From Catalinimonas alkaloidigena (GTDB lineage: Bacteria; Bacteroidota; Bacteroidia; Cytophagales; Flexibacteraceae): a DNA stretch of 64,000 nucleotides. The stretch lies in assembly GCF_900100765.1 (NCBI RefSeq), contig NZ_FNFO01000002.1, positions 248,001 through 312,000 of the forward strand, written 5' to 3'. A program made the translations under genes and the position numbers. This document shows positions 56,194-64,000 of this stretch, one piece after another. Below the pieces are notes generated by a model. It made no database searches. It was not told where the DNA came from and saw only the letters and a list, made by a program, of their open reading frames with translations. Within the stretch, counting starts at the first letter, position 1, and each line of letters opens with the position of its first letter.

Positions 56194-57096
56194 CTAGTAA
56201 TTTTGCGGCCTCTGTTCCGCATAATACGCCCTTCGCAGTGCCACCAGCCGCGCGTTGATCTGCGTCAGATCCGGACGGTCGGGGAGGGACGATTGGGCAA
56301 AGGCCGCCTCCATCTCCCGCGTCTTTTCCTCCGCCCGCGCCAGCAGCTCCTCGTACTCGAACGCGCCTGATTTGACCTGCAACAGAAAGTCCCGGTTGGG
56401 CCGCCGCACGTGGATCTCACTCGTCCGGCCGATCTCAATGGCCATGTCGAGCAGCCGAAGCGTGTGCATCAGGTTCTTGGCGTCGTAGTTCTTGCCGTGT
56501 TGGACCGTATTCTCGTAGCGCGCCTCGTTCCGTTTTTCTACCCACGCCCAGTATTCCTTGTACTCGCGACAATAGGTGGAGTAACCGTCTTTGTTAAAAT
56601 AGAGCACCGCCGCCTGCACCGCCTCTTTCGGAATGGAGCTGAGCGCGACTTCGTTCGACGTCGCCTTGCGGACAATCCCCGCGTAGTCCGCCGTGGGATC
56701 ATGGTAGAGACCGTAAAGATCTTTCATGTGCGGGAGGTTGACCAGCCCGCAGTCTTCCTGCCGCCAGCCGCGTGCCGCTAAAAAATGAAGGAGTGGAACA
56801 GAACCCTGGTGTTGGTTGACATAGCAGAAATCGAGCGGCGTTTTCCGTTCTTGGGCGACGGGATTAACGATCTTCTTATTGAGGCCGCGCGCCTTGCGCA
56901 TCTGTGACAGCGCGAACTTGCCGAACGAATCCTGACACAACTTTGAAACGAACAGCGACGGTTGCAGTCGCTCCAGCAGCGGATGCCGGTACCGTACGCA
57001 CGAGGGAGGCGAAGCGAGCAGCTCCAGGATGTTGGGGTTATTGGCCGCCAGCAACTCAAAGAAGCGACGCAGTTCGTAATAGACCTCGTGAATAAT
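56194..57096 (-). pseudogene. RlaP-type nucleotidyltransferase, 5'-truncated at island boundary
   Basis: The frame opens directly after a stop at 57097-57099 and runs to 56194, about 301 codons. Its C-terminal part (KNLMHTLRLLDMAIEIGRTSEIHV, RRPNRDFLLQVKSGAFEYEEL) matches RlaP/YcgL-like proteins of the DNA polymerase beta superfamily. The first readable residues (EVYYELRRFFELLAANNPNILEL) are an internal part of that family; the N-terminal nucleotidyltransferase block (GS-x-AYG..DSDxD) is missing. The only plausible start is a TTG at 57054. The break coincides with the hairpin at 57101 and the change to AT-rich DNA, so the gene was probably cut by an insertion. Confidence 0.65.
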
Positions 57097-57100
57097 TCAT

Positions 57101-57133
57101 AAACCCTTGTAAGTCAAGTACTTACAAGGGTTT
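57101..57133. repeat. Perfect 14-bp hairpin at the island boundary
   Basis: AAACCCTTGTAAGT (57101-57114) and ACTTACAAGGGTTT (57120-57133) pair fully around the loop CAAGT, followed on the plus strand by a run of T. It lies exactly where GC-rich chromosome gives way to AT-rich DNA and next to the truncated gene, so it may be an attachment-type junction. It could instead simply terminate minus-strand transcription of the HEPN operon. Confidence 0.6.
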
Positions 57134-57201
57134 TTTGTTTTCAGGTACAACATAGATACAACACTTAGATTATATAAAGAAGTAAGTTCATAGACAGTAT
57201 T

Positions 57202-58341
57202 TTATTTTATACAGTAAGGCCAAGCATATTGCGAAATAGGTAATCTACCTTCATTGTCGAAGTCTACTCCAATTGATCCATCTAAATACTCATCAGGATC
57301 TTTGTTATCAGGCAAAAAGTTGTATTCACTGTCCATTTTGCTTGCCACCCTCTGTAATTCGCCTTTGTTACCTCGTATATCTATGGTCGTAAACCTAGCT
57401 ACTTGATGTGTTTTAAAATTTATTACCTGAAACTTGTGATCTTTGTCTTTATGCTCTGGATATCTTTCTTTATCCAATTGAGATGTTTCTTCACATTTAC
57501 TTTCTAACTTTAGCAATGGAGTGTAACCATGTATATTTGTTATAAGTTTCATGCTTATACCTACTTTATCTCGAACAGTTTTATAAGCTAGCTCTTCAAG
57601 TATGGGTAGATATTCAGCTAGATCTTTAAAAAATGAGTAATCGCGTTTGCTTGCTCCATGCGCTATTTTTGATCGCAGTCCTCTAACCTTGTTCATATTA
57701 AAATTTTTGATATCATACTCACTCGCTAAGGACTTGATGTACTTTCCAGTTGCCTTATGTGGCAAGCTTATTTCAAAATTACATGAAGGGCATATTGTGG
57801 TTTGAAATTCTTTCGATTCTAAGTTAGCAACGAAATCAAGAACAGAGTAAAGGTATAGGAACTTGTCATCCAGTTTAGGAGTATTTTGGTAATATTTTAA
57901 TAGCCTGAGCAGATTGTAATACTTTGATTTTTCTGTATCGAGAGCAGTAAAATCAATAAAGTCATCTTTTTGTAAGCCTACTCTTTTTCTAAAAAATGAG
58001 GAGTGAATATGTAGCATTGGAAATTCGCCGCCTATTTTCGTTTTAGCATACGAGATAGCTAATGGAGAGTAAATATTTGCCGGTTGGAAGGTGATAAAGG
58101 AAAGTTGATCAATAAACTCACTGAGTAAATCAATAGAGCGGTAATAAGCAGTATCTATATCTTCCTCAGTCTGTCTTTTCGTATAAACTTCTAATAGGTG
58201 TAATTCTTTAGGAAATTCAGTTTGATCTCTCAAAACTCTAATCAGTGATTCCTTGTATTTAAAGTAATCATCTTCAAATATAACGTTCGCCTCAATAAGG
58301 GCTATAAATTTCCAGTCAGAATTAGCAATTTTATACATCAA
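57202..58341 (-). CDS. HEPN-domain protein (Apea-like), putative ribonuclease effector
   Basis: 379 residues, AT-rich codon use unlike the chromosome. The middle part reads VRGLRSKIAHGASKRDYSF: R223 and H228 form an RX4H motif as in HEPN ribonucleases, and LRSKIAHG resembles the Apea-like HEPN block. A CPSCNF pair (C184, C187) just before it may bind zinc. The N-terminal 170 residues and the C-terminal 110 have no recognised domain. It starts 4 bp inside the membrane-protein gene (ATGA overlap), so the two are co-translated. A toxin-like or anti-phage role is inference from HEPN biology and island context. Confidence 0.7.
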   Translation of the reverse strand: MMYKIANSDWKFIALIEANVIFEDDYFKYKESLIRVLRDQTEFPKELHLLEVYTKRQTEEDIDTAYYRSIDLLSEFIDQLSFITFQPANIYSPLAISYAKTKIGGEFPMLHIHSSFFRKRVGLQKDDFIDFTALDTEKSKYYNLLRLLKYYQNTPKLDDKFLYLYSVLDFVANLESKEFQTTICPSCNFEISLPHKATGKYIKSLASEYDIKNFNMNKVRGLRSKIAHGASKRDYSFFKDLAEYLPILEELAYKTVRDKVGISMKLITNIHGYTPLLKLESKCEETSQLDKERYPEHKDKDHKFQVINFKTHQVARFTTIDIRGNKGELQRVASKMDSEYNFLPDNKDPDEYLDGSIGVDFDNEGRLPISQYAWPYCIK

Positions 58342-59279
58342 GGTTTAATTGAATTTGGAATATACTGAATAGGATTATCAACAACTTCTTGTTTTGTCAT
58401 GTACCAAGTAATAGTCAAAATAATCAATACTATGATAATTCCAATTGTAACACCTAACCTAGCCCAAAACTTTTTTCTCTTCATTTTATTTTCGATCTCT
58501 TGCCTAGAAGGTTCATTATGAACTCGCCCATAAATTTTATCTCTAATGTTAGAAACATTTTCAATTGCTTGCTCTAGCTCATTAACTTTATACTGGAAAT
58601 CTTTATCTTCTTTATACTTTGTTGACTCTCTTAATGTCATGTAATCAGGCATTTCACTGCCACTACTTGAACTTATTCCAAACCCAACTAGAATCACAAA
58701 TATCATAAATATACCAATTCCTATATTTAGAATAACCTTCCCAATTAGTCTATATTGTGATAATGAAAAGGAGGATATCTCTTTTACTCCTATGATAGTA
58801 GAAGAAATAGATAGATTCGATTCTTTTTCTCCTTCATATATTATTTGCGCAGTTAGACCATCATTTCTTTCAAGAATATGAAAATTTAATGCTAATGTAT
58901 TATCGTTAATCTTAATAAGTTTTAGATTGCAGACATCTCTAGAGCTTTTTATTATTTTGTAGTCTATTATTTTAACATTGCGATCAAGCTTAAATATTAC
59001 ATTCTTTAATATATCTGTACTAAGTATTGGATCACTACCTTTATTCCAAAAGTAGAAAGTCATACTTGTTAGATCGCTTCTGATTTCATTTCCATCTGGT
59101 GTAAAAATTTTTATGGGAGCTTCTTTTGTTCGAGCTGTATTTAGAATCTCTAGTCTGATGGGATCTACTATAAAAGTTGGTTCCTTTTCTTTCTTTGTTC
59201 TCTCATAAAAATAGATCGTAAGTACAATACCAAATAGTCCTATACAGAGTCCCAAGATACCCAGTAAGTCTTTTTTCAT
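58338..59279 (-). CDS. Three-TM membrane protein, operon partner of the HEPN protein
   Basis: 313 residues. TM1 is at about 5-25 (LLGILGLCIGLFGIVLTIYF), then a soluble region of about 150 residues with alternating strand pattern (FIVDPIRLEILN, MTFYFWNKGSDPILSTDILK, LNFHILERNDGLTAQIIYEG), TM2 at about 182-203, a predicted coiled coil at about 225-250, and TM3 at about 273-294. No family is recognised. It is the upstream gene of the pair with the HEPN protein and could act as sensor or anchor for it (inference). Confidence 0.65.
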   Translation of the reverse strand: MKKDLLGILGLCIGLFGIVLTIYFYERTKKEKEPTFIVDPIRLEILNTARTKEAPIKIFTPDGNEIRSDLTSMTFYFWNKGSDPILSTDILKNVIFKLDRNVKIIDYKIIKSSRDVCNLKLIKINDNTLALNFHILERNDGLTAQIIYEGEKESNLSISSTIIGVKEISSFSLSQYRLIGKVILNIGIGIFMIFVILVGFGISSSSGSEMPDYMTLRESTKYKEDKDFQYKVNELEQAIENVSNIRDKIYGRVHNEPSRQEIENKMKRKKFWARLGVTIGIIIVLIILTITWYMTKQEVVDNPIQYIPNSIKP

Positions 59280-59440: not shown

Positions 59441-59800
59441 TTACTTCCCATGCCTTACAGTGAGTATATTCTTATCTAAGGCTATAAAACAGCCATTAGA
59501 AGCATATTCAGGTTGGTAGGAATACCTGAAGTCAAGTTTTACCTCCTGTCCTCCATACGGTAGTTTATGCATGTATGGAGCTACCTGCTCTCTTTTTACT
59601 CTTCCTGGCAGATGTTTCCCAACTAAGTACCTACATTCCTCCTCAGGAAGGCTACAAGCTACCAGGAACTTCACCCTTGTACTATGGTCTAAGCCTGAGA
59701 ATTCAGATTGGATCTGGATGTGATGACCATCTACCAGTAAAATGAAGAATCTTTTGCCTTCCTTGTTTTTACATTGCTCGAAATCTACTACAGTTAACAT
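59441..59800 (-). CDS. Small hypothetical protein on the island
   Basis: 119 residues, mixed alpha/beta, no signal peptide (MLTVVDFEQCKNKEGKRFFI, HHIQIQSEFSGLDHSTRVKF, RYSYQPEYASNGCFIALDK). Its base composition lies between that of the chromosome and the AT-rich neighbours, suggesting an independent origin within the island. No family recognised. It ends at its own terminator, separating it from the HEPN operon. Confidence 0.55.
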   Translation of the reverse strand: MLTVVDFEQCKNKEGKRFFILLVDGHHIQIQSEFSGLDHSTRVKFLVACSLPEEECRYLVGKHLPGRVKREQVAPYMHKLPYGGQEVKLDFRYSYQPEYASNGCFIALDKNILTVRHGK

Positions 59801-60509
59801 AAGCTATACCTATTAATCTGGATTGATCTAGGGCAGAGACATTCTGCCTTGTATAGCTGTGTGGGCTGGATTAGCTGCTTAAAAGGGGCCGGTTAAGGAT
59901 GGATAGAAGAGGGCCGGGGGTGCTTTAGGTGGTAAGTACCTACCAGAATTTTTACAAAAAAAATTTTTTAAGCCTAATTGTATTGGAGCAAATAATATCG
60001 AGAATACCTGAAATATCCATAATACCAAGAATAGGTGCTATGCGTATTCCTGCTATTTCAGGTATTATGGGTATTTCGAGTACTACTGACCACCTTCCTA
60101 ATGATAATTTCCCCCATCATAGGAAGTCCTCTTGAAGTCTCGGATATTAAGAAAAAGCTATATCATAGGTAAAAAGAATTTCGATATCCCAAGTACAGGA
60201 TTTTATGGGTATCTCTGTAAGCTCCCGCTCTTACTCTCATTCAATAATAGTCTATGTATTATAACCTATGAGGTTCTGGACTAGGTAGCAAAGATCCAAG
60301 TAACGCAGACACCTTCTGATGTATATAGTTTTCGGGGTTAGAGCATATAGGTAAATGGGGGAAATTGAAATAGCAAGAACGTTATGTTAAGAAACAACTT
60401 TAAGATCAATACCTATAATTCAGTATTGCAAGCTAAAGAAAAATATACCAACTTGAAAGTTATAAAGTCCTGTTAAACATATAATAAAATAATCTTAATT
60501 CTAATCGTA
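59801..60509. other. AT-rich non-coding region with inverted repeats
   Basis: 709 bp upstream of the NACHT gene. A plus-strand open frame at 59929-60135 consists of degenerate IPxIS-type units and looks like the translation of repeats rather than a gene. Around 60001-60081 there are inverted ACCTGAAATA/TATGGGTATT repeats, and another TTATGGGTAT copy near 60203. Otherwise nothing recognised. Confidence 0.45.
60006..60081. repeat. Imperfect 21-bp inverted repeat cluster
   Basis: 60006-60026 (ACCTGAAATATCCATAATACC, 18 of 21 positions) matches the reverse complement of 60061-60081. Further partial copies of GAAATA and ATACC units lie between. It could be a protein-binding or recombination site, or a hairpin. 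Confidence 0.55.
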
Positions 60510-62864: not shown

Positions 62865-63194
62865 ATGAGTAAAATAACATTTAAGTTTAAACTGGCTCTC
62901 GTAGATGGTATGAGAGCAACAACTTTCAGAATTGATTCTGAAAGACTTTCTGAAGATGATTTAGAAATTATGAGATCTCCTACAGATACTAATGTGATAG
63001 AAGGAGAGATTAGTATCGAACCAATCCTAAGTACTGTTGTAATTAGTGTTTGGGGTGTAGGGAAACCTAACCTTGTTGGTAGTTTTAATATAACATATAA
63101 AAATAAAAAATTTTTCGATGTAGACGAAAAGCTAGTAGTTAATAGTGGTGCAAGATTTAGATTTTATAAAACTCAGATTAAAATACCTTATTAA
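62865..63194 (+). CDS. Small hypothetical protein, all-beta
   Basis: 109 residues, no signal peptide, strongly beta-like alternation (KITFKFKLALVDGMRATTFRI, ISIEPILSTVVISVWGVG, LVGSFNITYKNKKFF). No family recognised. The next gene starts 2 bp after its stop, so the two are one transcriptional unit. Confidence 0.65.
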   Translation: MSKITFKFKLALVDGMRATTFRIDSERLSEDDLEIMRSPTDTNVIEGEISIEPILSTVVISVWGVGKPNLVGSFNITYKNKKFFDVDEKLVVNSGARFRFYKTQIKIPY

Positions 63195-63196
63195 AT

Positions 63197-64000
63197 ATGA
63201 AAATTAAAATTGCTTATCTTCTCGTTAGTATTTTTTTGTGCTATCCATTGTACTCGCAAAATTTAACTGAAAGTGCTAAAGGAGAAAGTTCACTCCTTAT
63301 GAGGGGTAATAATGCTTCCTTAAACTTGGGGGAGGCAGAATTAAGTTTTGGGCTGAATAATTTAAAGAAAAGCCTAGGAACGGCTTCATATTTAATCTTT
63401 GGAGTAAATGCTGTAGCAAAGAATGAATCAGGAATAGGCAATATATTTGACAGAGGATATTTAGTGCCTGAAGGGAAATTTAATGGTTTCTTAGGCTTAT
63501 CTTGGTCAAATGGAATTCCTGAGGCATTTGAAGAAGAGTATAGTGGTGAAATTGAAAAATACCAAAAGTTTATCAGTGACAGTAGAAGGTCTTTTGATGA
63601 ATATGTTACAAGATATATTTGTGAAAATAGCGATGAGGATTCATCACTGTCAAACATAAGGAAAGAATTGTGTGATGAATATAAAGAATTGAATAGTCCA
63701 CAAATGTTTTTAAACACTCTTAGAAGCAAATTAAAGCAAGAAAAAGATGCTAAGAGAAAAAATTTCATATTAGGACTTTATGATGAGCTATCTGATAAAA
63801 TTGACGATTTTAAAGAAACTAAGGATTATTATGATACTATAGTTGAAAATATGGAGAATACTCTTCAAGAAAAAGTATATTGGCAATTGATGGTTTTTGG
63901 GCTTGGAGGTATTAATGCTAGTGAATTTAAAAGGTTTGTAGGGTATGATAGTACTAATCTAAAAGATAGTTTCGAGGATGAATCATTTCGTGGTGGTAGA
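63197..64000 (+). CDS. Secreted protein with beta-barrel-like N-terminus and helical insert, partial
   Basis: 268 codons visible before the right edge. A clean signal peptide (MKIKIAYLLVSIFLCYPLYS) precedes strands typical of outer membrane proteins (NNASLNLGEAELSFGLNN, YLIFGVNAVAKNESG, KFNGFLGLSWSNG), then a long charged helical region from about residue 100 (FEEEYSGEIEKYQKFISDSR, LRSKLKQEKDAKRKNFI). The C-terminus is missing. It is coupled to the small gene at 62865. Function unknown; its presence in the island with a NACHT protein is notable. Confidence 0.7.
   Translation, partial: MKIKIAYLLVSIFLCYPLYSQNLTESAKGESSLLMRGNNASLNLGEAELSFGLNNLKKSLGTASYLIFGVNAVAKNESGIGNIFDRGYLVPEGKFNGFLGLSWSNGIPEAFEEEYSGEIEKYQKFISDSRRSFDEYVTRYICENSDEDSSLSNIRKELCDEYKELNSPQMFLNTLRSKLKQEKDAKRKNFILGLYDELSDKIDDFKETKDYYDTIVENMENTLQEKVYWQLMVFGLGGINASEFKRFVGYDSTNLKDSFEDESFRGGR

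Follow-up and report, generated by a model that had tools for sequence, protein, structure and literature searches.

The split rlaP-B gene and island 1

The DNA analysed here (the window, 64,000 nucleotides, C2:248001-312000 of the Catalinimonas alkaloidigena genome) ends within an AT-rich island, which we call island 1. The features at both of its ends and inside it are as follows, L004 being the locus of island 1.

56194..57089, minus strand: C-terminal part of rlaP-B, about five sixths of the gene, first 61-69 codons cut off
57067..57089, plus strand (L004 1068-1090): distal copy of the 23-bp core, a direct repeat
57101..57133, plus strand: hairpin with perfect 14-bp arms (57101-57114 and 57120-57133), loop CAAGT
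57144..57163, plus strand: arm-type repeat pair GGTACAACA / GATACAACA, motif shared with the TGTTGTACC repeats near the integrase
57202..58341, minus strand: element gene, 379 aa, no Pfam, PADLOC or NCBIfam match
58338..59279, minus strand: element gene, 313 aa, no family match
59441..59800, minus strand: element gene, 119 aa, no family match; the sister island has a homologue of 45% identity
60510..62267, plus strand: element gene, 585 aa, nSTAND3 NTPase (PF20720, E 1.5e-7)
62865..63194, plus strand: element gene, 109 aa, no family match
63197..64000 onward, plus strand (L004 7198-8523): element gene, 441 aa, runs past the window end
L004 12741-13970: tyrosine recombinase, 409 aa, PF00589 + PF13102 + PF17293
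C2:318150-318172 (window 70150-70172, L004 14151-14173), outside the window: other copy of the 23-bp core
C2:318150-318341, outside the window: N-terminal piece of rlaP-B, PF10127 positions 12-79
C2:318377-319117: rlaP-A, intact PF10127 gene

The genome (7.1 Mb, 38 contigs) contains three PF10127 (RlaP) matches, all in this single place. The two pieces of rlaP-B score 36.8 and 26.6 bits against a cut-off of 23 and thus match the family. The open reading frame of the C-terminal piece covers 56194-57054 on the minus strand with a TTG start, and its frame stays open up to the stop at 57097-57099. The alignment to PF10127 begins only at model position 71-73 and the N-terminal catalytic motif is absent, in agreement with a preliminary description of this DNA, according to which the gene begins inside its family's domain and lacks the catalytic N-terminus. 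That description also expected the missing 5´ part at the other end of the island. It lies there, 13.1 kb off and beyond the window, behind the 23-bp direct repeat. When the pieces are joined at the repeat, they give a single frame of 359 codons, in which the one difference between the repeat copies (GTT/GTC) is silent. The gene is split after codon 69, between the GSRAYG...DTD part, which we take to be the catalytic motif, and the remainder; the break point falls within the conserved stretch NDxVYYELRRF.

rlaP-A and rlaP-B form a tandem pair of RlaP-family nucleotidyltransferase genes, in which rlaP-B comes second. Directly upstream of rlaP-A and outside the island repeats, AT-rich genes of unknown kind occupy L004 15143-15868 and 17233-17982; they are perhaps a further acquired patch. 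In the available part of one source, RlaP enzymes are predicted to put back lost nucleotides ahead of RNA ligation (PMC7824862), and an excerpt of another names RlaP among counter-RNase repair systems (PMC6514570). rlaP-B belongs by its match to this RNA-repair-type family, whose repair activity is predicted in print (PMC7824862).

We searched 395 genomes, a sample of the class, for PF10127 and found it in 33. Besides Catalinimonas alkaloidigena, 19 have two matches, which are adjacent rlaP-A and rlaP-B genes in 17 (G075, with a 2-kb gap, and G316, with reverse order, were left out). The genes of this tandem pair measure about 260 and 360 codons. In all 17 tandem genomes rlaP-B is in one piece, with 46-59% identity to the joined 359-residue protein; the alignment starts at residue 2 or 3 and reaches about 351 in 16 of them and 317 in G240. 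The family listing has one genome for the genus, and the empty site is represented by these uninterrupted homologues from other genera. The preliminary description had named two findings that would speak against a cut gene. Full-length homologues starting at the same residue as the truncated piece did not turn up, all 17 having the N-terminal part, nor is the 5´ half missing downstream. Among the 33 PF10127 genomes of the 395, complementary partial matches occur only in Catalinimonas alkaloidigena, and no second genome with rlaP cut by an element was seen.

Core to core, island 1 measures 13,106 bp with a G+C content of 33.0%, against 58.9% in the host part (window 1-56000). The junction of acquired DNA proposed in the preliminary description is supported. 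The core copies are identical at 22 of 23 positions, while the best match between the junction windows in 200 shuffles was 17; at up to 3 mismatches, the core occurs at these two places only. Direct repeats bound both ends. A tyrosine or serine recombinase was to be looked for at the far end, and a tyrosine recombinase sits there. Inward from it follow a 319-aa protein of unknown kind, an HTH_17 protein, an AAA_25 ATPase and, also beyond the window, a Mrr_cat protein, for which the best PADLOC model is PDC-S02, with type IV restriction models matching too. Island 1 encodes 11 predicted proteins in all, five of which, besides the 319-aa one, have no family match. Going by its family name, the nSTAND3 NTPase would be defence-type cargo. 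No relaxase or conjugation genes are present among the Pfam matches of the 11 proteins; a diverged relaxase could escape this search. Two clusters of short AT-rich repeats (GGTATT/AATACC), at window 59989-60082 and L004 10061-10113, are inverted copies 6 kb apart and 93% complementary over 30 nt; possible functions are an origin or a regulatory site.

Judging from sequence, island 1 can be classed as a tyrosine-recombinase integrative element, having an integrase, direct repeats and an uninterrupted target elsewhere. Its precise excision would restore rlaP-B. ARAGORN found no tRNA in L004, so island 1 does not display the intact tRNA plus fragment of Islander type.

The hairpin and its counterparts

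The 14-bp perfect hairpin was described correctly beforehand. It is indeed adjacent to the in-frame stop of the rlaP-B piece, although at a distance of 1 bp and not 2. It is borne by the element, starts 11 bp inward of the distal core and faces antisense to rlaP-B, with its T-run (57131-57136) pointing into the element. The 71-nt hairpin stretch folds with -24.2 kcal/mol (z -5.5), and none of 200 shuffles was equally stable. With a G+C-containing stem-loop followed by a T-run, it has the form of an intrinsic terminator, and we suggest that it stops transcription.

The idea that the hairpin is part of the integration site is not supported. What is duplicated is the 23-bp core, a distinct sequence lying outside the hairpin. 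The hairpin itself is present once, on the element side, and stems differ between relatives; the second copy expected at the other end was not found. With a single copy at this island, the hairpin as a duplicated signal is rejected. The junction, the island, the missing half of the gene and the recombinase all stand from the preliminary description, but the role it gave to the hairpin does not.

The same contig carries a sister island, island 2:

C2:813450-830314 (L052 1451-18315): sister island, with its integrase at C2:813650-814876

Its integrase is 75% identical to that of island 1 and is the only other one at E 1e-60 or better in 11 family genomes. The target differs from that of island 1, being the terminator of a host gene: 31-bp perfect repeats bound the island and form a host terminator-like stem-loop after a gene that is presumably epimerase-like. 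The cargo is different as well (GmrSD_N, CAP12/Pycsar TIR and DUF559 proteins). The two islands have in common the AAA_25 ATPase (35%), the 119-aa protein (45%) and the layout of the ends with arm repeats and hairpin. Beside the integrase, TGTTGTACC occurs in two exact copies in island 1 and three in island 2; the distal arm pair consists of one exact copy and one with a change in island 1 and of two exact copies in island 2. These repeats are probably bound by the integrase. In both islands, the hairpin stands between the distal arm pair and the core. Other PF13102 integrases lie beside AT-rich stretches at C2:601407 (L089, shortly after tRNA-Met) and C4:642089 (L090).

At up to 3 mismatches, the hairpin sequence has three sites in the genome: both islands and a position on C5, 15 positions after tRNA-Asp. 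The hairpin of island 1 and the terminator of this tRNA-Asp gene match at 95% identity across 42 bp. Counted in the same way as the 15 positions after tRNA-Asp, the distance from core end to hairpin is 15 for island 1 and 17 for island 2. Compared by eye, neither the cores of the two islands with each other nor core 1 with the tRNA-Asp 3´ end show likeness beyond short words; the present targets of the islands have no visible sequence in common with tRNA-Asp.

Of the 395 class genomes, 15 contain the hairpin sequence and none the reversed control. It occurs in 14 other genomes, at one place in each. In 10 of the 14 it lies 7-18 positions after a tRNA (Asp in seven, then Gln, Glu and Phe); of the remaining four sites, three have no visible tRNA and the fourth, at the end of its contig, is next to a tRNA-like end. 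In nine family relatives with the tRNA-Asp pattern, the downstream hairpins differ in sequence and, judged by eye, are mostly nearer the tRNA. Because of these differences, the host copy may itself derive from an element. The tRNA-Asp terminator of the host may thus be an element relic, and the copying may have gone in either direction. Three loci (L094, L095 and L096, in G326, G347 and G205) have a tRNA-Asp, the hairpin and arm-like repeats with no related integrase in the DNA covered, and are possible element relics. A search for a related integrase near the tRNA hairpins of L094-L097 and L100 covered stretches between 2 and 40 kb long, one of which has masked bases, and found none (best E 0.11).

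Ends of related elements

Relatives were taken from genome contigs as 40 loci, many of them partial. Core labels other than the ARAGORN cases were assigned by eye. On the integrase side 25 loci could be compared, four of them without a recognised tRNA core. The other 21 have a tRNA-type core, and just outside it a terminator-like hairpin is present in 20; under the same loose rule, 101 of 2,700 host-side control windows contain one. On sequence grounds we regard this outer hairpin as the native terminator displaced from its tRNA.

For the distal side, 21 elements were prepared and ends were located in 10, eight by the repeated core and two (L017 and L033) by the arm pair only; for the remaining 11, either the DNA stopped short or no end was identified. 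The distal arm pair was matched in nine of the 10, and L023 shows one arm. Beyond the distal core ARAGORN recognised a tRNA in six of the eight repeated-core relatives (Cys, Arg, Lys, Glu, Glu, Lys), and these six have an intact tRNA with a fragment at the other end, as in Islander-type islands.

A strict terminator-like hairpin lies inside the distal core at 9 of 12 ends, or at 7 of 10 when the two islands that gave rise to the rule are set aside, compared with 97 of 20,028 interior control windows (about 0.5%). The loose rule finds it at 10 of 12 ends and in about 4% of control windows. L031 fails the strict rule, having a 12-bp stem and a weak tail. L033, with no recognised tRNA core, and L016 have no distal hairpin by either rule; in L016, a tRNA-Met at the integrase end is followed by a stable fold of -26.2 kcal/mol that satisfies neither. 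Stem sequence and core distance vary among relatives, while place and T-run are kept.

The integrase tree places islands 1 and 2 together with L007 and L008, and the grouping of these four has support 95/92. Both L007 and L008 have a tRNA-Asp-like core, as labelled by eye from the core. The tree row of L030 holds 7 stops read as X. Extra stretches matching only the C-terminal 26-57 integrase residues, at 66-85% identity, are present in L027, L033 and L041-L043; in L027 and L033 they lie downstream of the full integrase.

A proposed replacement terminator and comparison with known systems

Islands in tRNA genes rebuild the tRNA. We suggest that island 1, inserted into the coding sequence of rlaP-B by site-specific recombination, belongs to a Bacteroidota family located mostly at tRNA 3´ ends. 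There, insertion would rebuild the tRNA and cut the gene from its native terminator, which would end up at the integrase-side end. Each element would bring a terminator hairpin of its own, immediately inward of the core at the tRNA-side end and ahead of the distal arm repeats. The hairpin in the window would be such a replacement terminator, of tRNA-Asp type, although it would serve no tRNA at rlaP-B. The ancestor of island 1 would then have used tRNA-Asp. Taken as a whole, the best explanation, which we hold to be very probable, is that a 13.1-kb element split rlaP-B and that the hairpin is a tRNA-Asp-type replacement terminator kept after landing in a protein gene. The broader proposal is likely, if less firmly so: the family carries an exchangeable terminator by its attachment core, a tRNA severed from its own terminator gets a new one, hosts and elements swap terminators, and members in protein genes or gene terminators keep theirs as a fossil of a tRNA past.

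The hairpin might instead be no terminator at all but a signal for recombination or packaging that the integrase or an excision factor reads. Its position between core and arm-type repeats, in an order fixed at the island ends, would suit such a role. We nevertheless consider it rather unlikely, since stem sequence and core distance vary between relatives, the T-run is on the element side wherever the hairpin was found, and the hairpin sequence is common to native tRNA terminators; moreover, the stable fold of L016 follows a tRNA at the other end. It is far less probable still that an ordinary island ends by chance near a stray host terminator, with a coincidental likeness between elements. 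Terminator-like hairpins do occur in some windows, at the strict and loose background rates given above, but a same-place hairpin in seven of 10 relatives and in the sister island, and the close match to the tRNA-Asp terminator, argue against coincidence. A misjoin parting the rlaP-B halves, conceivable in a draft genome of 38 contigs, is scarcely credible: both halves are on one 901-kb contig with consistent order, strand and frame, direct repeats are present, the integrase is where it would be expected, and elsewhere the contig carries another element built in the same way.

If the replacement-terminator reading is correct, a terminator borne by the element can help to locate element ends and to recognise tRNA targets of the past, and island 1 is a case of such an element within a protein gene that belongs to an RNA-repair family. 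Among the literature matches listed, no title or abstract start mentions an element-borne tRNA terminator; closed journals were outside this scope, so this is no proof of novelty.

Islands in tRNA genes as described in the available part of the Islander paper (PMC4383910) resemble island 1 in tyrosine integrase and direct repeats, and the rebuilt tRNA with a displaced tRNA fragment is also seen in relatives of island 1; their targets are tRNAs, whereas island 1 sits in a protein gene. The paper does not mention a replacement terminator, and the word "terminator" does not occur in its text (PMC4383910). Islands inserted in dusA, as an excerpt presents them (PMC4482086), are like island 1 in being integrase-borne and inside a protein gene linked to tRNA, a likeness by description only; gene and integrase family are different. 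In ICEKp1 of Klebsiella pneumoniae, according to the portion of the source at hand (PMC13023037), insertion shifts the terminator of the tRNA to the element's far end, and the integrase adjoins the tRNA and uses the tRNA promoter. The family of island 1 is alike in that the tRNA terminator is displaced to the far end. Unlike in ICEKp1 (PMC13023037, same portion), its integrase mostly occupies the opposite end, and the tRNA is followed, within the element, by a putative terminator. An element family that brings its own terminator would, if our interpretation is true, represent the opposite solution to that of ICEKp1.
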